From NCBI GenBank assembly GCA_903834925.1, contig CAILLA010000076.1, positions 1 to 54,974 of the forward strand: 54,974 bases of DNA, read 5' to 3'. Positions 45,074 to 54,833 of this stretch are shown piece by piece; the first letter of the stretch is position 1; each line of letters starts with the position of its first letter. Origin of the DNA: an uncultured Schlesneria sp. Lineage in GTDB: Bacteria > Planctomycetota > Planctomycetia > Planctomycetales > Planctomycetaceae. The notes under the pieces were generated by a model. It ran no database searches and was not told where the DNA came from. It worked only from the letters and a program-made list of their open reading frames with translations. Both the position numbers and the translations under genes were made by a program.

Positions 45074-45150
45074 GCCGCGAAGCATTTTCGAAGAGGGCGT
45101 CGGGCGTCCAACTTTCAAAATTGGCCGGCGGAACGCCATCTTCAAATAGG

Positions 45151-45195
45151 GCAAAGGCCCGTTAACCACCCCTGTGGATGGGGTGGGATTGCGTT
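45151..45195 (+). repeat. 45-bp double-hairpin element, copy 1
   Basis: It starts GCAAAGGCCCGTTAACCACC and ends with a GC-rich palindromic half. Two hairpins (GGGC-AAAG-GCCC and CCACCCC-TGTGGA-TGGGGTGG-like) flank GTTAAC. It overlaps the end of the antiporter gene and supplies its stop codon. Copies 2 and 3 lie at 52457-52501 and, inverted, at 54789-54833. Confidence 0.85.
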
Positions 45196-46625
45196 GGACC
45201 TTCGCTCGATTCATCGCTGGGAATCAGTTTTCGTAGAATTGGGGCCGTGGCAATTGTTGTTGCCAGCGCCATGATCACCATCATCGCGAACAGCTTCGGT
45301 GAAATCACGCCGAGCGACAGTCCGATGTTCAGCACGATCAACTCCATCAAGCCTCGGGTATTCATCAGAATTCCCAGTGCGGCCGACGTCTGCCAGTCAA
45401 TTCCGTTGAGGCGCGAGGCGAGGATCGTTCCGCCAAACTTCCCGATGGTCGCGATCAGGATAATCACAGCACAGATCAGCCAACTGTCCAAACCGCTGAT
45501 CAGACCAATTCGTGTATTCATCCCCGTCACGGCGAAAAACGCGGGTAGCAGCATGATTGTCACCACATCATGCAATTTTGAGGTTAATTCCTTGCTGACG
45601 CGGCTGTCGTGAGGAATCATCGCACCCAGCAGAAAGGCTCCGAAGACCGCATGTATACCAATCGCTTCCGTCGACAGAGCAGCACACAGCAAGGCGATCA
45701 ATAACAGAGGTGTCGTCCGTTGATCTAACCCACGATCTTCTGACCAAGCGATCCACCTCAAGATCAGAGGTCGAACCACCACAAACATCAGGGCAATAAA
45801 CGCAATCGTGGCGACCGCGACCATCACCGCATCGCCAATTTGAGCTTTCGCAACTCCCACCACAAACGCCAGTAAACACCATGCCGTGACATCGTCTGTC
45901 GCAGCACAACTGAGCGCGATGACCCCGAGATCCGTCTGGTCCAAACGATGATCCGTCAGGATCCGGGCGAGGATCGGAAATGCCGTAATGGACATTGCCA
46001 CACCGAGAAACAAGGCGAAACTTGTAAACGGGACTTCGCTCGTTGATAGCATTGGATACAGCCACAGTGCTAATAACGCCCCCAGGACGAACGGAAAAAC
46101 GATGCTGGCGTGTGAGATCGCAATTGCCGCCTTCGCCTGTCCCCCGACTTTTTGCAGATTGAGTTCCAACCCGACGATGAACATGTAGAGGACGACCCCC
46201 AATTGAGCGATCGTTTTGAGTGACGAGACAACCAGACCATGCGGATCAGTACTCGCATCAGGAATCAAGCAATGCATCGCGTCGGGAAAAAAGGTGCCGA
46301 GAATGGAGGGACCGAGCACGATCCCCGCAATGACCTCGCCAATCACAGCCGGTTGGTGAAACCGCTTCAGAATCCAGGCGAACAAGTTTCCCACTGCAAT
46401 AACTGCGGCAAGCGTGGCCAGGACGTGGACAACAACATCAACACCAGCAGATTTCTTCACACCGGTTGTTGTTGCGGTTACCAACGCTGCCGGAGCTTTC
46501 AACTCTTGCCCAACACGTTGAATCCACCAAAACGAAACGATCCCTCCGGCAAGCAGCAGAAAATAAAAGACCAGCAATGTCCCCGATTCGTGTCGAGGCC
46601 GGGTGTTTGAGGAGGCCGTGCTCAT
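45162..46625 (-). CDS. CPA2 family Na+(K+)/H+ antiporter
   Basis: 487 residues with an N-terminal membrane segment, then about 12 helices of the Kef/NhaS fold: GEVIAGIVLGPSILGTFFPD, GVVLYMFIVGLELNL, and the core DD-like ALSCAATDDVTAWCLLAFVV with ion-binding D residues. No NAD-binding TrkA-N domain follows, so it resembles plain CPA2 exchangers. ATG 46625 is chosen by the ORF; the upstream region holds palindromes (46705-46739). The last residues (SHPIHRGG, stop TAA) are encoded by the 45-bp element, so the native C-terminus was probably replaced. Confidence 0.92.
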   Translation of the reverse strand: MSTASSNTRPRHESGTLLVFYFLLLAGGIVSFWWIQRVGQELKAPAALVTATTTGVKKSAGVDVVVHVLATLAAVIAVGNLFAWILKRFHQPAVIGEVIAGIVLGPSILGTFFPDAMHCLIPDASTDPHGLVVSSLKTIAQLGVVLYMFIVGLELNLQKVGGQAKAAIAISHASIVFPFVLGALLALWLYPMLSTSEVPFTSFALFLGVAMSITAFPILARILTDHRLDQTDLGVIALSCAATDDVTAWCLLAFVVGVAKAQIGDAVMVAVATIAFIALMFVVVRPLILRWIAWSEDRGLDQRTTPLLLIALLCAALSTEAIGIHAVFGAFLLGAMIPHDSRVSKELTSKLHDVVTIMLLPAFFAVTGMNTRIGLISGLDSWLICAVIILIATIGKFGGTILASRLNGIDWQTSAALGILMNTRGLMELIVLNIGLSLGVISPKLFAMMVIMALATTIATAPILRKLIPSDESSEGPTQSHPIHRGG

Positions 46626-47259
46626 CAGCAGAACGATTCAATAGATTCGATGCGTCTTCCAGGCTGTCACGGTGACAATTCCTACAATACGAAACAATCA
46701 ATTATTGTCGTTTAAACAACAATCGTCAAGACAATTGTCATTGATTTGATTGAGATATAGGCATTTTCCTGTCCAGATCGGATTAAAGATTCGCCCGACG
46801 CGCAAGCTCGGGTCTTGCGCGGTTCTCCCCCGCTTGCGCATCGGTCTCATGTTATGTTTTTAGCAATTAATATTAATATTAACATTCAACCTGGTAATAC
46901 TTTGCGTCACATTCAGGAGTATGAATGAAAGCCAAGTCACGACAAGAGCTCGTATGTTCACACGTCAGGCGAATCTCACACAAAAATAGGAAAACCCGAA
47001 AATTTTCCAATTTTTCGTGTCATGAATTCGGGTTCCCGGATAATTCATCATTAATTCACGTAAACAATCTCTGTTGCAACGGTTTTCCACAATCAATTCT
47101 TGCGTTTTGAGCCTGAATTTGAGAGCGGTGACTTTACGGATCGCGGTGCCTGGCTTTTTTCCAAGCTTCGAGTTTGTTTCATTTTGATCGGTGTTTTGCT
47201 TGGTGCCGAAATTCGGTTCCCCAAGTTTTTTGCGTCGTTTGCTTCAAGGAGTGTGTGTC
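46626..47259. other. AT-rich divergent intergenic region
   Basis: 634 bases between the antiporter and the prepilin-like gene. It holds palindromes near the antiporter, a hairpin GCGCAAG-CTCGGGT-CTTGCGC at 46800-46820, and an AT-rich stretch (AATTAATATTAATATTAAC near 46865). Small open frames here show no protein features. It probably contains promoters for both genes, including one for the module at 47260. Confidence 0.5.
46705..46739. promoter_or_regulatory. Operator-like palindromes upstream of the antiporter
   Basis: An 18-base imperfect palindrome TTGTCGTTTAAACAACAA (46705-46722) and a perfect GACAATTGTC (46730-46739) lie 80-114 bases upstream of the antiporter start. The arrangement resembles a pair of sites for a dimeric regulator. 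The regulator is unknown. Confidence 0.5.
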
Positions 47260-48432
47260 ATGGCTTTATCTTCATCTGGTTTTCCATCTCGTCGGCGGAA
47301 AGGCTTTACGCTCATCGAATTGCTGGTCGTGATTGCCATCATTGCCGTTCTGATTGCTCTGTTGCTGCCAGCCGTTCAACAGGCTCGCGAAGCCGCTCGA
47401 CGAACTCAGTGCAAGAACAACCTGAAGCAACTAGGTTTGTCGTTGCACAACTACGAAAGCACATTCGGCCAATTTCCAATGCCAGCCATTTGGTCTGTCA
47501 ATGTGACCAGTGGCTCACAGGGAGATCCTTCCTTTGCCATGTCATGGGGTATGTCGATTCTGCCGTACATGGATCAAGCACCGCTTTTCAACTCGTTCGA
47601 TTTTACTCGTCCGATTTGGTCCGGTGCCAACAATCAAGCATTGATTGCGAAAACATTGACCGCCCATATCTGTCCTTCAACCCCATCAATTCCACAGGCT
47701 CCGACCACGTGGCTTGCCAGCCCACTCCGAGGCAATCCGAGTTCAGGCTTGGCACCATCGTCTGATATCGTGATTCCGGCTTGGGGTCGTTCGGATTACA
47801 TCGTTCCCACCGACGTTCGTAGCCCGCTCTACTACAGCTTGACCAATGGAAGCACTGCGACCCGCCACGGATTTTTCTTCGCCGGTGACGCCTTTGGTAG
47901 CGCGGTTGTCTCAGATACGAATCCAGCCACGGTCGCCGCAGTCGCGGCGAAGGGATATCAAGACGGTTCACCGACGGTGGCCAAGGTATTGGACGGTCTT
48001 TCCAACACAATCATGATTGCGGAAAAAGCAGGTCGCAATCAGTTGTGGGAAAGGGGTCAACTCTTTACGGCCGCCAATCCTGATGCCGACTCGAGTGGAA
48101 CCTCCGATTATCTCGCTTACCTTTCGAATCAGAATAACTACGCCGGCGGCGGTTGGGCAGATCCAAACAACGCCGAATGGCTGGATGGTTCTAACCGGAA
48201 CGGTATGGTCGGAAGCTATAACAAAACTGCAAACGGTGATGGATCTCAGGTGAATTCCTGCCCGATCAACTGCAACAACCTGACTGCCCACTCGTGGTAT
48301 TCCTGGCACATCGGCAGCATTCACGTCGCTATGGGTGACGGCAGCGTTCGGACGATTAACGAAAACGTCTCGGATAACGTCCTCGCCAACGCCATTACGC
48401 GAGCAGGTGGCGAAGTTCCTGCCGACTTCTAA
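47260..48432 (+). CDS. DUF1559 H-X9-DG prepilin-like protein A
   Basis: 390 residues. A type IV prepilin leader ends RRRKG (G15), then [20 protein letters not shown] with the conserved glutamate at mature position 5. The typical DUF1559 body follows ([20 protein letters not shown]). The family's closing motif is [12 protein letters not shown], His-X9-Asp-Gly. AAGGAG about 8 bases before ATG 47260 supports the start. It is probably cleaved by a prepilin peptidase and assembled into a pseudopilus or surface fibre. It heads the module that also contains a lipoprotein, sigma/anti-sigma genes and a second pilin-like/lipoprotein pair. Confidence 0.93.
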
Positions 48433-48462
48433 GATAGAATTCGCGGCCCTCGGTTTATTTTG

Positions 48463-48503
48463 TCCGCCTGGTTTTCAGCTCACTGTGAACCAGGCGGATT
48501 TTG
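48463..48503 (+). terminator. Intercistronic terminator or attenuator
   Basis: TCCGCCTGGTT (48463-48473) pairs with AACCAGGCGGA (48488-48498), followed by TTTTG. It lies between prepilin A and lipoprotein A, so most transcripts may stop here, giving more pilin-like protein than lipoprotein. Confidence 0.75.
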
Positions 48504-48528
48504 TCATGCTTTACGGAGTGGAATCGAG

Positions 48529-48996
48529 ATGAAATCTCGGGCGTTGTTACTTTCATTGATTTGCTGCGGTCTGGCCTTCTCACAAATTTCCTGCTCTCGC
48601 CCCAAAGGGAAGGTCGTAAAAGATAAAGTTCCGTTGTCCCCGGTCACGGGAACAGTCATGATCGATTCGGAACCTGCGCAAAACGTGATCGTCGATTGCG
48701 TCCCTTTGACCGCCATCGCGGAAATTCGACCGCAGTTCGGGACATCATTCAGAGGAGTGACCGCTCACGATGGAACTTTTTCCATGAGCACCTATGCGCG
48801 AGGTGACGGAATTCCCTATGGTGAGTATGCCGTTTTGTTTCGAAGGCTTGAACAACGACCTTCCGGAGAAAAGGATTTGCTGGGTGGTCAGTACTCCGAC
48901 GTCCAGAAACCGCTGATGAAGATTAAGGTCGTCGAAGGCGAGGATCTCGATCTTGGCGAGATCACGTTAAAACAACCTGCGAACGCAGGGAAATAA
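48529..48996 (+). CDS. Carboxypeptidase-regulatory-like lipoprotein A
   Basis: 155 residues from ATG 48529 (GGAG about 8 bases upstream). A lipoprotein signal (LICCGLAFSQISC) leads to a small beta-sandwich domain: PVTGTVMIDSEPAQNVIVDC, THDGTFSMSTYARGDGIPYG-like segment, YAVLF, and DLDLGEITLK. The fold resembles transthyretin-like/carboxypeptidase regulatory domains, common partners of planctomycete DUF1559 proteins. It is paralogous to the protein at 51866. A role as outer-membrane partner of the pilin-like protein is inference. Confidence 0.82.
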   Translation: MKSRALLLSLICCGLAFSQISCSRPKGKVVKDKVPLSPVTGTVMIDSEPAQNVIVDCVPLTAIAEIRPQFGTSFRGVTAHDGTFSMSTYARGDGIPYGEYAVLFRRLEQRPSGEKDLLGGQYSDVQKPLMKIKVVEGEDLDLGEITLKQPANAGK

Positions 48997-49048
48997 CGCT
49001 GAAATGTGACAATAAAGGCATCTAAGTACCACTGTGGTGTCAACGACG

Positions 49049-49573
49049 ATGGACGAGAAAACTCGCGAATTGACGCGGTTGTGGATGTCGGCTCAGCCGA
49101 TCGTTGCTTCGTTTGTTTCGTCCATGGTTTCTGACTTCACCGCGCGCGATGACATCATGCAGGAAATCATCACGGCGGTGATCGAATCGTTTGATACCTA
49201 TGACACGTCTCGTCCATTCATCGCCTGGTTACTGGGAATCGCCCGAAATCAAGTCGGTCTTTATCGACGTAAACTTTCTCGTGATCGAGGGCTTTTCGAT
49301 GAGGCCACGGCCGACGTTCTGGCCGACGCCTTTTCTCGTGTTTCTATCTCCGAGGTCCGGCGATTAGAATTCCTGCAGGATTGCATTGAACGCCTAAGCG
49401 ATCGTGACAGGAAATTGTGTGATCTGCGCTACGAGCAAGATTTAAAACCGTCGGGAATTGCCTCACGCCTGGGAATCACTGCGAACAACGTTTCCAAAGC
49501 CCTGCAACGGATTCGCGATCAACTTCGAAATTGCATCGAATTACAGGTCGCGAGAACGGAAAGGCCCTTATGA
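49049..49573 (+). CDS. ECF-type sigma-70 factor
   Basis: 174 residues with region 2 (FTARDDIMQEIITAVIESFDTYD, then RPFIAWLLGIARNQV) and region 4 (LSDRDRKLCDLRYEQDLKPSGIASRLGITANNVSKALQRIR). It matches the planctomycete/verrucomicrobial sigma family usually paired with FecR-like proteins. ATG 49049 is preferred to GTG 49034; neither has a good ribosome binding site. Its stop overlaps the next gene as ATGA (49570-49573), so it is coupled to its likely anti-sigma factor. Genes on both sides encode the prepilin/lipoprotein pairs, which may be its regulon. Confidence 0.9.
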   Translation: MDEKTRELTRLWMSAQPIVASFVSSMVSDFTARDDIMQEIITAVIESFDTYDTSRPFIAWLLGIARNQVGLYRRKLSRDRGLFDEATADVLADAFSRVSISEVRRLEFLQDCIERLSDRDRKLCDLRYEQDLKPSGIASRLGITANNVSKALQRIRDQLRNCIELQVARTERPL

Positions 49574-50550
49574 GCGTCGACAGTGAATGGCTGATCAACG
49601 GCCACCTGGACGGAAGTCTGACCGCCGACGAGCGACTTTCACTTGGCGAGTGGTTGAAAGCTTCATCCGACAACGCAGACCGATTTGCACAAGCGGTCAT
49701 GCTGCACAACCGGATTCGCGTCCACTACGAATCATTGAGAGAAACCGAGAAAAAAGTCGACCGCATTCGTGTCGCCTCTGCCCCACGTTCGCCCTACTCG
49801 CGTCGATTCATCGCCGTTGCAAGCCTGGCGTGCGTACTCTCAGGTGCTTTTCTATATCTGTTGACCCTATCGGGCCCAAGTCCCCGAGTCGCCGCAATCG
49901 CGGAATTTCATCAACTGGTGATCCTGGGTCGACGTCCTGCCGATCGAACGTACCGGATCACATTCGTGAAAGACCCGTCTGATCGACCTGAGAATCCTGG
50001 AAAAAATCGAGAAAATCCAGAGAACTCAGCCCGTCCTGGCAATGAACCGATGCTGTATGTTCGCGACGGTCGTCAGTTCGTCTATTCCCGTAAGGCTCTT
50101 GACGGTCGTCAATTTATTATCGGCGGTAATGGTCATCAAAGCTGGGCGATTAAACCTGGCGAGCCCGCTGAAGTGAGCGGTCCGTTGCACTTTACCGAAG
50201 GCTTGCCAGCCGGATTGTATCTGGCACCGGTCCTCAGTTTTTTTGATGGTCAGGAAAAAATGCTGCTGAACGATTACAACCTTGAGCTTCGGAATCCGAC
50301 GAAGTCCACGAAGGTATTCGTTGCCGTCAAGAAACCTGATACAAAACAGGGACCGCGTCGGATCGAAATCTCGTTCTCGGAAATCACTGGCCAGATCGCG
50401 GAAATGCGGATCTGGCCCGAAACGCCTGACCATCGGCGGACAAGTCACACATTGATCCAACTTGTCAGCGAACAAAAGCTCGCCGACAATTGGTTCACAC
50501 ATGAGTTTCATCATCCCGACAATCCACAAAAATCCAACACTTCCATTTGA
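49570..50550 (+). CDS. FecR-like anti-sigma factor candidate
   Basis: 326 residues. The cytoplasmic N-terminus (residues 1-75, LINGHLDGSLTADERLSLGE then ADRFAQAVMLHNRIR) has the short helical pattern typical of planctomycete anti-sigma proteins; no HxxxCxxC zinc motif. One membrane helix (about 81-100, FIAVASLACVLSGAFLYLLTL-like segment) follows, then a periplasmic domain with LolA/FecR-like strands (MLYVRDGRQFVYSRK, EMRIWPET). The ATGA overlap with the sigma gene strongly suggests a sigma/anti-sigma pair. What it senses is unknown; the periplasmic domain could detect envelope or pilus state. Confidence 0.78.
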   Translation: MSVDSEWLINGHLDGSLTADERLSLGEWLKASSDNADRFAQAVMLHNRIRVHYESLRETEKKVDRIRVASAPRSPYSRRFIAVASLACVLSGAFLYLLTLSGPSPRVAAIAEFHQLVILGRRPADRTYRITFVKDPSDRPENPGKNRENPENSARPGNEPMLYVRDGRQFVYSRKALDGRQFIIGGNGHQSWAIKPGEPAEVSGPLHFTEGLPAGLYLAPVLSFFDGQEKMLLNDYNLELRNPTKSTKVFVAVKKPDTKQGPRRIEISFSEITGQIAEMRIWPETPDHRRTSHTLIQLVSEQKLADNWFTHEFHHPDNPQKSNTSI

Positions 50551-50608
50551 TCAGCGTTGATCGATATGATTGCCGATTTCATTTCGTGGTTTGGGAGGGA
50601 TGCGAATA

Positions 50609-51865
50609 ATGCCCTCAAGCATTTCTCGTGTTGCAGTTCGTACCCGGCGGCGATCAGTTTTTGTAGCCCGAAAACGGCGAGCGACAAGTCGTAACATTGG
50701 CTTTAGCCCGTGCAGCATTACATCGAGTCGACGCTCGATGTCTCCGCGGCAAGAACGGTCAACCTCTCGGCATGGAATGACACTGGTCGAATTAATCGTC
50801 GTCATTGCGATGATTGCCCTGTTAATCGGGCTGTTGTTACCCGCCGTGCAACAAGCTCGTGAAGCGGCTCGCCGGGCAAACTGCAAAAACAATCTGAAGC
50901 AGCTTGGCTTAGCGATGCACAACTACGAAAGTACTTACGGTCAATTTCCCATCGCGGCGATCTGGAATGTTGACGGGACTTCTTCGAAAGTCATTTCTGG
51001 AAAATCCTGGGGACAAGCGCTTTTGCCTTTTATCGATCAAGCGGCAATCGCGACCGGGTTTGACGAGTCGCAGCCGATCTGGTCAGGTGTAAAAAATCAA
51101 GCTCTGATCGCAACATCGCTACCGATTTTTGTCTGTCCTTCCGTCCCATTTATTCCCAAGCCAATGACCCGATGGAGTTCCGACACCGTGGCTAAAGGGG
51201 GAAGGCTGAATTGTGATATCGTCCCAATGCAGCCGATTGAAGCGACCTGGGGCAGAACCGACTTTATTGTCACGTGCGACATTCGTTCGCCCCTCAAATC
51301 GAACCTGGCCGCTGCAGGCGTTCCCTCGGCAGGGACTGTCGGGTTCTTTTATTGCGGGGAACAGAACGCACTTGCTGTGGTCAGTGGAAACGGAGTGACA
51401 GGTGCTTTCGATGCTTCGCCAAAAATCTCAAAAGTTTCAGACGGGTTGACGAATACGATCATGATTGCCGAGCTGGCCGCTCGGAACCAGTTATGGGAAA
51501 AGGGAAAAAACATCACCACGGCACCCTCAACCGATACGCCTGCCGCAGCAGAAAATTTCGTTCACCTGCTCAATCAACAGACCCACTTTGGCGGTGGAGG
51601 TTGGGCGGACCCGAACAACGATCAATGGGTCGATGGTGGTAATCGAGACGGAAACAATGACATCCGGGACGTCAACGGAGATAGAAACTCGTGCGTCATC
51701 AATTGCACCAACCTCCAAGCCCGGGCGTATTATTCATTTCACATCGGAATGGCCAATTTCACGATGGGTGACGGTTCTGTGAGAAGCATCAGCGAATACA
51801 TCGACGATACGTTACTCGCCTTTCTGATCACACGTGCGGGTGGCGAAGTCGTTGGAGATTATTAG
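50609..51865 (+). CDS. DUF1559 H-X9-DG prepilin-like protein B
   Basis: 418 residues. The body parallels protein A ([20 protein letters not shown]; closing motif [12 protein letters not shown]). The mature N-terminus begins after RHG (G56) as [20 protein letters not shown]. The leader from ATG 50609, supported by GGGAGGG, is about 56 residues long and very basic, far longer than A's 15. It contains the GGGCTTYAGCCC element, read as [10 protein letters not shown] shorter start at ATG 50738 would give an ordinary leader of 13 residues but has no ribosome binding site. The long leader is either an insertion or an untranslated artefact. It is immediately followed by lipoprotein B. Confidence 0.88.
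50690..50713 (+). repeat. GGGCTTYAGCCC element, copy D (in leader of pilin B)
   Basis: 24-base copy with core CATTGGCTTTAGCCCGTG. It lies in the leader-coding or 5' untranslated part of prepilin B and is one of two copies inside predicted coding sequence. Confidence 0.8.
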
Positions 51866-52330
51866 ATGCGATTTCGAAATCTCTGGGTCGTCTGCTGTCT
51901 GTTCTGCCTCCTTTGTCAGACATCCTGTTCACGCTCGAAACGTCCTCCCATTACCGACAAGGTTCCGTTAACGCATGTCACAGGAATCGTTCTTGTCGAT
52001 GGAGTTCCCACGTCGGGGGTTCACGTGCAATACGTTCCGCAGGGTGAAATCGCCGAACGACGAGAACGCTACCTGAATCGTTTCTTCCTGATGTCTGGAG
52101 ACGGGGGAAAGTTCTCGCTCAGCACTTATGTGAACGGGGATGGCATTCCCTATGGGGAATATGTTCTCGAATTCAAATTACTGGAACAGCGTCTGTCAGG
52201 CGAAGTCGACAAATTCGGCGGCGAATACTCCAACGTCCGCTCCCCCTTCATGACAATCAAAGTCGAAAAAGACGCAGACCTGGACCTGGGCGAAATCGAA
52301 TTGAAAACCCGCCCCGAAGCGAAGAAGTAA
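51866..52330 (+). CDS. Carboxypeptidase-regulatory-like lipoprotein B
   Basis: 154 residues. The ATG follows the prepilin B stop (TAG) with no gap, indicating coupled translation. A lipoprotein signal (VVCCLFCLLCQTSC) precedes the same domain as lipoprotein A: VTGIVLVDGVPTSGVHV, NGDGIPYGEYVLEF, LLEQRLSGEVDKFGGEYS, DLDLGEIEL. The two lipoproteins share most of these blocks, so the pilin/lipoprotein pair has been duplicated as a unit. Confidence 0.85.
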   Translation: MRFRNLWVVCCLFCLLCQTSCSRSKRPPITDKVPLTHVTGIVLVDGVPTSGVHVQYVPQGEIAERRERYLNRFFLMSGDGGKFSLSTYVNGDGIPYGEYVLEFKLLEQRLSGEVDKFGGEYSNVRSPFMTIKVEKDADLDLGEIELKTRPEAKK

Positions 52331-52346
52331 GCACCACGCGGGATTC

Positions 52347-52380
52347 TTATTCGTGTCATTCGTAAGATTCGTGGTCAAAA
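52347..52380. repeat. TTCGTGTCATTCGTAAG-type repeat
   Basis: Loosely related to the element at 29832: repeated TTCGT units ending GGTCAAAA. It starts 17 bases after the lipoprotein B stop. Confidence 0.45.
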
Positions 52381-52456
52381 CTCTTCTGATTTCCGGGAAG
52401 ATTCGTCCATGAACTTCGGCAAGTTAGTGAGTCTGGTTTTAGCCGAGAGGACTAGG

Positions 52457-52501
52457 GCAAAGGCCCGTTAACCACCCCCGTGGAGGGGGTGGGGTTTCGT
52501 T
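52457..52501 (+). repeat. 45-bp double-hairpin element, copy 2 (intergenic)
   Basis: Same start as copy 1 (GCAAAGGCCCGTTAACCACC) and 5 differences or so over 45 bases; about one difference from copy 3. It lies in the spacer, outside any CDS. Confidence 0.85.
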
Positions 52502-52711
52502 TTGGATTTCGCGATTTTTCCCGACGAACAATCGTTTACGGCGTTTCCTGAATCAGAAAATTTAAATTTCAGAGTTCTTCGAGTAAGATTTCTATTTGGC
52601 CCGAGTTATTCATTTCAGAACGGTTTTGTTGATCCACATCGAACTTGAGCCGGAAACGCCAGGGTTGTCGTTTCGCCGCAATCAAAAAATCCTCTTTCCC
52701 AGAAGGTGACG

Positions 52712-53308
52712 ATGTACGAGCAGCCGCGAACACGTCCGAGCCTGCTGGTCCGTCTGCAAGGGGCGCGTGATGAGCGGGCGTGGTCTGAGTTTTCGCTCAT
52801 CTACGAGCCACTGGTCCTTCGGCTGATGCGACGACGTGGTTTACAGGAATGTGATGCTCGCGATGCGACACAACAGGTTCTGATCCGAATCAGTGGCGCA
52901 ATTGAACGCTATCAAAATGACGGGGCCGACGCGTCGTTCCGGCGATGGCTGTTTCGAGTCGCTCGAAACGTCGTGGTGACTTTTTTGACTCGACAATCGG
53001 GACAGCCAAAGGTGATGGATCACGATCAGATTGCCAATGTGCTCGATTCCGTGTCAGCAGATTGTGCTGAGTCACAGTTGTTCGATGTCGAGTATCGGCA
53101 GCAGGTGCTTGCCTGGGCCATCGAACAGGTGCGTCGGGATTTTAAGGACTCGACATGGCAGGCGTTTGTCGAGTCGAGCATTCATGGCCGGCCGATCGCC
53201 GACGTGGCCAGCGAGCTGGGCCTGTCGGTCGGCAGTGTCTATGTCGCCCGCAGCCGGATTGTTGCACGGCTGCGAGCGAAAGTCGAAGAGCTGGAGACGG
53301 ACCTATGA
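52712..53308 (+). CDS. ECF-type sigma-70 factor (second)
   Basis: 198 residues. Region 2 is visible in WSEFSLIYEPLVLRLMRRRG and DARDATQQVLIRISGAI, then FRRWLFRVARNVVV; region 4 in STWQAFVESSIHGRPIADVA, then LGLSVGSVYVARSRIVARL. The AGAAGG before ATG 52712 supports that start over GTG 52706. Its TGA overlaps the ATG of the next gene (53305-53308). This is the known planctomycete arrangement of an ECF factor coupled to a kinase carrying an anti-sigma zinc finger. It may respond to kinase activity. Confidence 0.93.
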   Translation: MYEQPRTRPSLLVRLQGARDERAWSEFSLIYEPLVLRLMRRRGLQECDARDATQQVLIRISGAIERYQNDGADASFRRWLFRVARNVVVTFLTRQSGQPKVMDHDQIANVLDSVSADCAESQLFDVEYRQQVLAWAIEQVRRDFKDSTWQAFVESSIHGRPIADVASELGLSVGSVYVARSRIVARLRAKVEELETDL

Positions 53309-54822
53309 ATCCTGGAGTCACCCATTACGATCGCGATTGCCTGCGACGGCTGCTGGACGAAACCCTACAGGAACCACTGGCCAGCGAAGTGGCCGAACAT
53401 GTCGCTGACTGTGCCGACTGCCGTGCTGATCTGGAATTACTGGCCGGCCAGCCGCAGTGGTGGTCGCAAACTTGCAGTGACATCAAAGCGATCCTGGCCG
53501 ATCCGCAGGCGTATTCGTCCAGCGGGGACGATCTTGCAGGGTTATCGTCCGCAGGCCGAAGAACGGGAAGCCGGTCTCATGACTTGAGTGATGAATCGTT
53601 TGCCTCGGATTTCGCGGTCGATTTTCTTGAACCCTCTGACAACCCCGCGACGCTGGGTCGATTGGGTGAGTACGAGATCGTCGAAGTCATCGGTCGCGGC
53701 GGAATGGGGATCGTGCTGAAGGGGTTTCAAAAGGAACTGAACCGGTACGTCGCCGTAAAGGTCCTGGCACCGCATCTGTCATTGAGTGCCGCCGCTCGCA
53801 GGCGATTCGCGAGAGAAGCTCAAGCTACAGCAGCGATTGTGAATCCGCATGTGATGGCCATTCATGCCGTCGCCGCGAACGCCAAATTACCCTATCTCGT
53901 GATGCCCTTCGTGGCGTGCGAGTCACTGCAACAGCGACTCGACCGACAGGGACCGCTGGATGTGAAAGATGTGCTGCGGATTGGGCTTCAAGCCGCCAGT
54001 GGACTGGCCGCAGCGCATGCTCAGGGGCTTGTCCATCGCGATGTGAAGCCCGCCAACATCCTGCTGGAGACCAGTGTGGAACGAGTCATGCTGACCGACT
54101 TCGGTCTCGCCCGGGCCGTCGACGACGCCACGTTGACTCGAACAGGAATTATCGCCGGGACGCCGCAATACATGTCGCCCGAGCAGGCCAACGGCGACGC
54201 GGTTGATCCCCGATCAGACCTGTTCAGCCTCGGTAGCGTGCTATATGCGATGTGTACTGCGCGTCCACCGTTTCGAGCGGATTCGACGTTCGGCGTCTTA
54301 CGCCGTATCCGAGAAACGTCCCCTCGTCCGATCCGCGAGATCAATGCCGATATCCCGGAATGGCTGGAACGAATCGTGATGAAATTGCTGTCGAAGTCAC
54401 CCGACGACCGCATCCCCTCGGCCACGCAGGTCGCGACGCTATTGGAGCAATGTCTGGCTCACGTTCAACAGCCAACAACCGTTCCGTTGCCGACTGGCGT
54501 TCCTCTGCAACAAGGGGTTCGATCGTCCGGTTCTCCGAATCGAACGCGGCGCCTGACGCAGATCACGGCTGTGGCGCTGTTGATTGCGGGGATCACGACT
54601 TGGGCCGTCTGGCCTCAATCGAAACCAGCGATTGATGAAAGCCAAGAGATCCTTGCTGATCAATCCACGGCTGACGACTCGCTGCTGGAATGGGACACGA
54701 TGCAAATGAAACTCGACGCCACGGCAAACGATGTTGAAGATCTCAATGGCGAAGCCTGGCAGGAACTCGACGGACTGGATGCAACACCAACGAAACCCCA
54801 CCCCCCCCACGGGGGTGGTTAA
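53305..54822 (+). CDS. Membrane Ser/Thr kinase with N-terminal anti-sigma zinc finger
   Basis: 505 residues. Residues 12-45 form a zinc-finger anti-sigma motif, HVADCADC (H32, C36, C39). A linker leads to a Hanks-type kinase domain (about 122-385): GRGGMG, K152 in VAVK, HRDVKPANI (D246), DFG (265-267), GTPQYMSPEQ. One membrane helix lies at about 419-436 (QITAVALLIAGITTWAVW), then a 65-residue periplasmic tail. The sigma gene overlaps by ATGA, so the zinc finger probably binds that sigma factor and the kinase may control release (inference from known ECF-kinase systems). The last residues PTKPHPPHGGG and the stop come from the 45-bp repeat. Confidence 0.93.
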   Translation: MNPGVTHYDRDCLRRLLDETLQEPLASEVAEHVADCADCRADLELLAGQPQWWSQTCSDIKAILADPQAYSSSGDDLAGLSSAGRRTGSRSHDLSDESFASDFAVDFLEPSDNPATLGRLGEYEIVEVIGRGGMGIVLKGFQKELNRYVAVKVLAPHLSLSAAARRRFAREAQATAAIVNPHVMAIHAVAANAKLPYLVMPFVACESLQQRLDRQGPLDVKDVLRIGLQAASGLAAAHAQGLVHRDVKPANILLETSVERVMLTDFGLARAVDDATLTRTGIIAGTPQYMSPEQANGDAVDPRSDLFSLGSVLYAMCTARPPFRADSTFGVLRRIRETSPRPIREINADIPEWLERIVMKLLSKSPDDRIPSATQVATLLEQCLAHVQQPTTVPLPTGVPLQQGVRSSGSPNRTRRLTQITAVALLIAGITTWAVWPQSKPAIDESQEILADQSTADDSLLEWDTMQMKLDATANDVEDLNGEAWQELDGLDATPTKPHPPHGGG

Positions 54823-54833
54823 CGGGCCTTTGC
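54789..54833 (-). repeat. 45-bp double-hairpin element, copy 3 (in kinase 3' end)
   Basis: Reverse-complement copy of the element at 45151 and 52457. It encodes the kinase's final TKPHPPHGGG and its TAA stop. Confidence 0.85.

Follow-up and report, generated by a model that had tools for sequence, protein, structure and literature searches.

What does a sigma/anti-sigma pair do between two pairs of genes for DUF1559 pseudopilins and small lipoproteins? The question is raised by contig CAILLA010000076.1 of an uncultured Schlesneria sp. (Planctomycetota, assembly GCA_903834925.1), whose whole length of 54,974 nucleotides is the window of this analysis; it is one contig (C76) of the 307 that make up the 9.02-Mb host assembly, coded G000 among the genomes (G), contigs (C) and loci (L) cited below. 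An earlier note on this DNA had described six genes on one strand, and open reading frame (ORF) calls place all of them on the plus strand as claimed: the pseudopilin P1 (47260..48432), the lipoprotein L1 (48529..48996), the extracytoplasmic function (ECF) sigma factor SIG (49049..49573), the predicted anti-sigma factor ASIG (49570..50550), the second pseudopilin P2 (50609..51865) and the second lipoprotein L2 (51866..52330), which starts directly 3' of the P2 stop codon. Our findings suggest that these genes probably constitute one autoregulated operon, in which ASIG would act like a fused RseA and RseB and control the pseudopilin-lipoprotein pairs.

DUF1559 genes are numerous in planctomycetes: excerpts of published accounts give 74 in R. 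baltica (PMC2754498), a group of 68 paralogues in P. limnophila (PMC10632474) and, in T. immobilis, 91 proteins that combine both domains (PMC8567305). The last of these accounts also notes that genes of this type often have neighbours encoding type I or II signal peptides. The host genome lists 79 DUF1559 matches, including the two of the window and split or partial ones; not all of them entered the control set, which comprised 48 DUF1559 genes of over 200 codons in 40 own-genome regions. A match to the lipoprotein model stood next downstream in 11 of these 48. This comparison with other DUF1559 loci set the unit apart, since no sigma gene occurred within four genes of any of the 48 (about 4 kb on each side, less at contig ends). 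The unusual feature of the unit is the regulator pair.

Searches with ASIG in 170 genomes of the family (E<=1e-6) gave matches in 44, and an order-level search covered the same number of genomes and returned the same matches. In the DNA around these matches, the gene order pseudopilin, lipoprotein, SIG, ASIG, pseudopilin, lipoprotein was found in G000, G143, G145 and G146, and a second order, with SIG ahead of the first pair and ASIG after it, in G135 and in G144, whose second pair appears to span two contig ends. Thus 6 of the 15 genomes of the genus, the host among them, carry the complete set in one or other of the two orders, in agreement with the claim of a self-contained, co-conserved unit. 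For each of the six genes, dN/dS between the window and three relatives was 0.05-0.19; because of this and of its retention in 6 of 15 genomes, the six-gene unit is not a chance arrangement. Only the six unit-bearing genomes gave lipoprotein matches of at least 99 bits, and one such match is an additional copy in G135, which lies on C19 and not in the unit. The window, G145 and G146 have upstream flank genes in common, and G143 has one of them, in part; three upstream flank genes were looked for in the DNA around the units of G135 and G144 and were absent from it. The downstream flank differs. The ASIG-P2 gap measures 58 nt in the window versus about 210-220 nt in three relatives.

The pair was duplicated as a unit, as had been proposed from shared blocks: P1 and P2 are identical at 193 of 386 aligned positions and L1 and L2 at 74 of 149 (50% in each case). 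In a tree of 27 pseudopilins, the P1 and P2 proteins of the six genomes group apart, with supports of 100/99 and 99/99, respectively (94/90 for P2 when the G135 C19 copy is added). Two genomes of another genus, G153 and G155, carry a one-pair form (SIG, ASIG, pseudopilin, lipoprotein), whose pseudopilins fall just outside the joined P1 and P2 group (100/99 with them included). In the lipoprotein tree, L2 of the six genomes forms a group (99/99) and L1 is unresolved. Since P1 and P2 form separate groups across six genomes, the pair duplication predates the split of these species.

A predicted sigma-dependent promoter, GTCATGAA-N10-CGGATAATT, stands at the operon head (47019..47045, plus strand). 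In a four-species alignment, the 20 columns 47019-47038 are fully conserved, the next 20 are 90% conserved and the preceding 20 are 70% conserved, with 10-25% farther upstream. A like block precedes SIG, and not P1, in G135 and G144, where SIG comes first. A matrix built from module sites only was run on 44 SIG upstream regions; the top 12 non-module upstreams scored 6-17, versus 43-48 for module sites, and in 9 of these 12 the site lies 52-64 nt before the ORF start. The pattern drawn from the matrix-found sites, GTCAYRAT-N10-CGGWTAAKT (17 specified positions, four of them two-fold), was found with up to three mismatches in 32 of 57 SIG upstreams, versus 0/57 on the reverse strand and 0/57 downstream, and it matched in 9 of the 13 class-level loci that played no part in shaping it; the other 7 of the 20 class-level loci had been left out for lack of a SIG call or under the adjacency rule. 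With up to two mismatches, 10 of all 20 class-level loci have a site, which in L233 is not directly before SIG. Over 81 loci (953,753 bases), the same threshold gave 41 matches versus 1 for the reversed pattern: 31 before SIG, 4 before P1, 1 before ASIG and 5 elsewhere. Two of these five (L037, L092) fall within the 5' portion of SIG ORFs whose called length seems excessive, one precedes a sulfatase gene (L101, at 8678) and two precede ORFs of about 303 and 191 codons (L085, at 2934, and L233, respectively); the second sites in L085 and L101 suggest more than one target in those genomes. Counts of GGATAAT against reversed words were uninformative because of codon content.

The window site has one mismatch to the pattern, and genome searches used the pattern freed at that position to fit it. 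The sole perfect match of this loosened pattern in the 9.02-Mb genome is 47019-47045, upstream of P1, and no genome-wide regulon beyond the operon was apparent, as matches with up to two mismatches showed no excess (37 versus 29 for the control). Ten further genomes were searched. Eight of them (G075, G114, G126, G135 and G143-G146), including five with the module, have a single perfect match, which stands at the unit head; in G142 the site at SIG has one mismatch, and G087 has one perfect match and no ASIG match. With up to one mismatch, the ten genomes gave 25 matches versus 13 for the control. Within the window, no match precedes L1, SIG, P2, L2 or the sigma gene at 52706. Of the two places where the earlier note had suggested looking for a shared motif, the one upstream of 47260 has a match and the one upstream of 50609 has none. 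The proposal that the sigma factor controls its own pilin-like genes probably holds, given the family-wide motif and its sole perfect place upstream of P1; as no motif precedes the second pair, sigma control of P2-L2 would be by read-through.

SIG (174 aa) matches TIGR02989 (141.9 bits versus a cut-off of 124.55) and, above cut-off, Sigma70_r2 and r4_2; it is a short protein with regions 2 and 4 only. Its partner had been described as a FecR-like membrane protein overlapping the sigma gene. The overlap, by ATGA, and the membrane location stand, with a transmembrane helix at about residues 79-102 and a periplasmic domain at about residues 105-326. The FecR domain does not: PF04773 gave no match at E<=1 in the window ASIG, nor at 0.01 in 29 family members, and it was matched in the longer homologues L119, L120 and L132. 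For ASIG as a whole, no Pfam model scored above cut-off and no NCBIfam model matched at 0.1. Its cytoplasmic N-terminal part appears DUF4880-like (0.086 in the window, <=0.01 in 15 of 29 members, best 1.7e-6), and structure prediction gives the periplasmic part the LolA/RseB/MucB fold. The LolA, LolB and MucB_RseB Pfam models found no match at 0.01 in the 29 members, a search in which remote homologues can be missed, and the ASIG profile had one weak and unconvincing match (0.86) among solved structures. In L083 (G144), ASIG is read in two frames, which may be a broken gene or a sequencing error.

P1 carries PF07596 (1e-50), the N_methyl prepilin motif PF07963 (37.2 bits) and the H-X9-DG model TIGR04294 (29.9 bits), all above cut-off. 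In P2, PF07596 is matched at 1e-47, PF07963 falls just below cut-off (20.6 versus 21.2), and TIGR02532 (19.8 versus 16.3) and TIGR04294 (24.7 versus 19) are above it. The P2 start at 50609 is backed by similar N-terminal residues in the relatives; the window P2 has 418 aa versus 377 aa in G145 and G143, the extra 41 residues lying in the leader. This in-frame extension (about 50655-50770) holds a 24-nt repeat with near matches elsewhere in the genome. L1 has the lipobox ISCS with Cys22, which is invariant across 20 aligned proteins, and L2 carries a lipobox as well. Neither L1 nor L2 matched a Pfam family at E<=1; some relatives are weakly TTR/DUF4198/CarboxypepD_reg-like (DUF4198 in 7 of 20, best 7.4e-4), and the lipoprotein profile had one weak, unconvincing match (0.44) among solved structures. 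The P1-L1 gap holds a hairpin followed by TTTT (48463..48498, plus strand, fold z -4.0), a possible attenuator that is conserved in the four-species alignment; G144 has a different stem with a T-run in this gap and G135 a weak stem only. That the hairpin is special to the unit was considered and rejected, as comparable ones occur in many other DUF1559-lipoprotein gaps. Strong examples are those of L190, L193, L206, L215, L131 and L133, and weak ones those of L192 and L201. Their frequency hints at uneven expression within such pairs.

The regulators have relatives well beyond the genus. At 1e-8, ASIG was found in 59 of 397 class genomes sampled. An ASIG call was made in 72 loci (52 family, 20 class), and in 40 of the 72 (24 family, 16 class) ASIG is followed by at least two of a ~245-aa protein, sulfatases and a YHYH/PEBP protein, names that rest on Pfam scans of example loci; many of the other 32 are cut by contig ends. 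Such a class-wide cassette of sigma factor, LolA-type anti-sigma factor, ~245-aa protein, sulfatases and YHYH/PEBP protein occurs in the host genome itself (L102, G000 C288:1-15000) and in many relatives, and G135 has a PEBP gene inside its pseudopilin unit. The window unit accordingly appears to be a relative of this cassette with its cargo swapped. A single origin of the link between regulator pair and pseudopilins was considered and is not favoured: both the ASIG and the SIG tree require two changes, a single change being enough in 11% of 200 bootstraps for ASIG and in 0% for SIG. The SIG tree leans against a single origin, with which the starred branches of the trees, taken alone, are compatible. 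Two further loci bring regulators and DUF1559 genes together. In L132 (G135 C19:2033000-2048000), a sigma and FecR-LamG anti-sigma pair and a DUF1559-lipoprotein pair are divergently oriented, which may represent a separate link. In L244 (G425 C1:318000-331000, another family), DUF1559 and lipoprotein matches stand one gene upstream of a sigma/anti-sigma pair, and no promoter motif was found there with up to three mismatches.

From these observations, we hypothesize that SIG would be held at the membrane by ASIG, whose outer LolA/RseB-like part would let it work like RseA and RseB joined in one chain. A ligand reaching the outer domain, acylated (most likely a misrouted lipoprotein or other lipid) or else another envelope signal, would end the inhibition and free SIG, which would recognise the promoter at 47019-47045. 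The genes from P1 to L2 would then be transcribed as one operon, with a transcript that reaches P2-L2, renewing the regulators and making two pseudopilin-lipoprotein pairs that presumably act in the envelope; the hairpin after P1 probably keeps P1 in excess. Some results weigh against this hypothesis. No motif site was found in the own-genome cassette on C288, in the related L108 and L109 or in L088; none precedes P2, in the window or, with up to two mismatches, in L079-L083; and the conserved block ahead of P1 is compatible with a sigma-70 promoter as well (9/12).

The explanation of the earlier note was a surface-fibre system, in which the sigma factor controls both pilin-like genes and the anti-sigma factor senses the state of the fibre. 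The N_methyl and H-X9-DG motifs of P1 and P2, matches to prepilin peptidase at three genomic sites and the sigma motif at P1 agree with it, and yet we regard it as unlikely: neither the unit nor the scanned flank genes include an assembly ATPase, a platform protein or a secretin (the ATPase and secretin were not searched genome-wide), the literature excerpts do not describe DUF1559 proteins as fibres, and the modelled sensor fold is LolA/RseB-like. The support here for fibres is the prepilin motif, nothing beyond. Slightly less probable still is that the pairs are passengers, the sigma and anti-sigma genes having inserted among DUF1559 genes while controlling just their own expression or that of other targets. 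DUF1559-lipoprotein pairs are indeed common (the 11 of 48 above) and homologous regulators usually adjoin sulfatases, but in either gene order the motif stands ahead of the complete set, the six genes are kept with both pairs under purifying selection, and the motif shows no excess elsewhere in the genome. That the block before P1 is a housekeeping promoter, with SIG acting elsewhere, is improbable, because its sigma-70-like spacing and hexamers (five such sites versus 4.6 expected in the region) stand against 36 of 41 motif matches at operon heads of this sigma family in the loci scanned and perfect matches of about one per genome.

An extension of the operon hypothesis, which we offer tentatively as a possibility, is a new Planctomycetia-wide class of anti-sigma factors, whose anti-sigma domain is joined to an RseB/LolA-like sensor that would directly read lipoprotein or lipid traffic, with one private operon and motif per copy; in this genus the unit's own lipoproteins would be the ligand, in a feedback loop setting the dose of the pairs. 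The literature excerpts gave no account of a LolA-fused anti-sigma factor or of the promoter motif, which is weak evidence of absence, as the search was not aimed at LolA/RseB; two of the papers make no mention of LolA. The DUF1559 family is numerous and its function unknown; a private sigma factor, a defined motif and a recognisable sensor fold offer a means of switching a pair on and of asking in response to which signal it is needed. The motif and fused sensor further point to a regulator family of the whole class, testable in cultured planctomycetes with the sulfatase form.

Around the unit, positions 52706-54822 of the window hold another sigma gene and, after it, a Ser/Thr kinase gene, and G143, G145 and G146 have a different sigma-kinase pair, on the opposite strand, at the matching boundary. 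A G+C-rich interspersed repeat lies at 52431-52510, 45147-45187 and 54789-54833 and in five other own-genome loci searched (L194, L197, L203, L216 and L225); a similar sequence sits in the P1-L1 gap of relatives. An Rfam scan of 46600-52700 gave no match at E<=0.1.

Among known systems, sigma-E/RseA/RseB of E. coli and AlgU/MucA/MucB of P. aeruginosa share with the unit an ECF sigma factor, a single-pass anti-sigma factor and a periplasmic sensor of LolA fold, modelled in ASIG. RseB has a second domain, without counterpart in the 326-aa ASIG model. The unit also differs from RseA/RseB in that the sensor domain lies within the ASIG chain itself and the cytoplasmic part appears DUF4880-like, and from the sigma-E system in that the predicted SIG regulon is one operon. 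The DUF4880 resemblance recalls FecI/FecR-type pairs, including the planctomycete sigma and FecR-LamG pairs, one of which adjoins a DUF1559-lipoprotein pair in G135 (L132); in contrast to these, ASIG is without a FecR (PF04773) or LamG domain and the unit without a TonB-dependent transporter. P1 and P2 are members of the expanded DUF1559/SBP_bac_10 family (H-X9-DG), distinguished from its other genes by the accompanying sigma/anti-sigma pair and promoter motif. The nearest likeness in regulators is the sister cassette SIG-ASIG-X240-sulfatase-YHYH/PEBP-sulfatase, with homologous sigma and anti-sigma factors and the same motif in many copies, although its cargo consists of sulfatases and YHYH/PEBP proteins and its own-genome copy on C288 is without the motif; the G135 unit, with its PEBP gene, is intermediate between the two.

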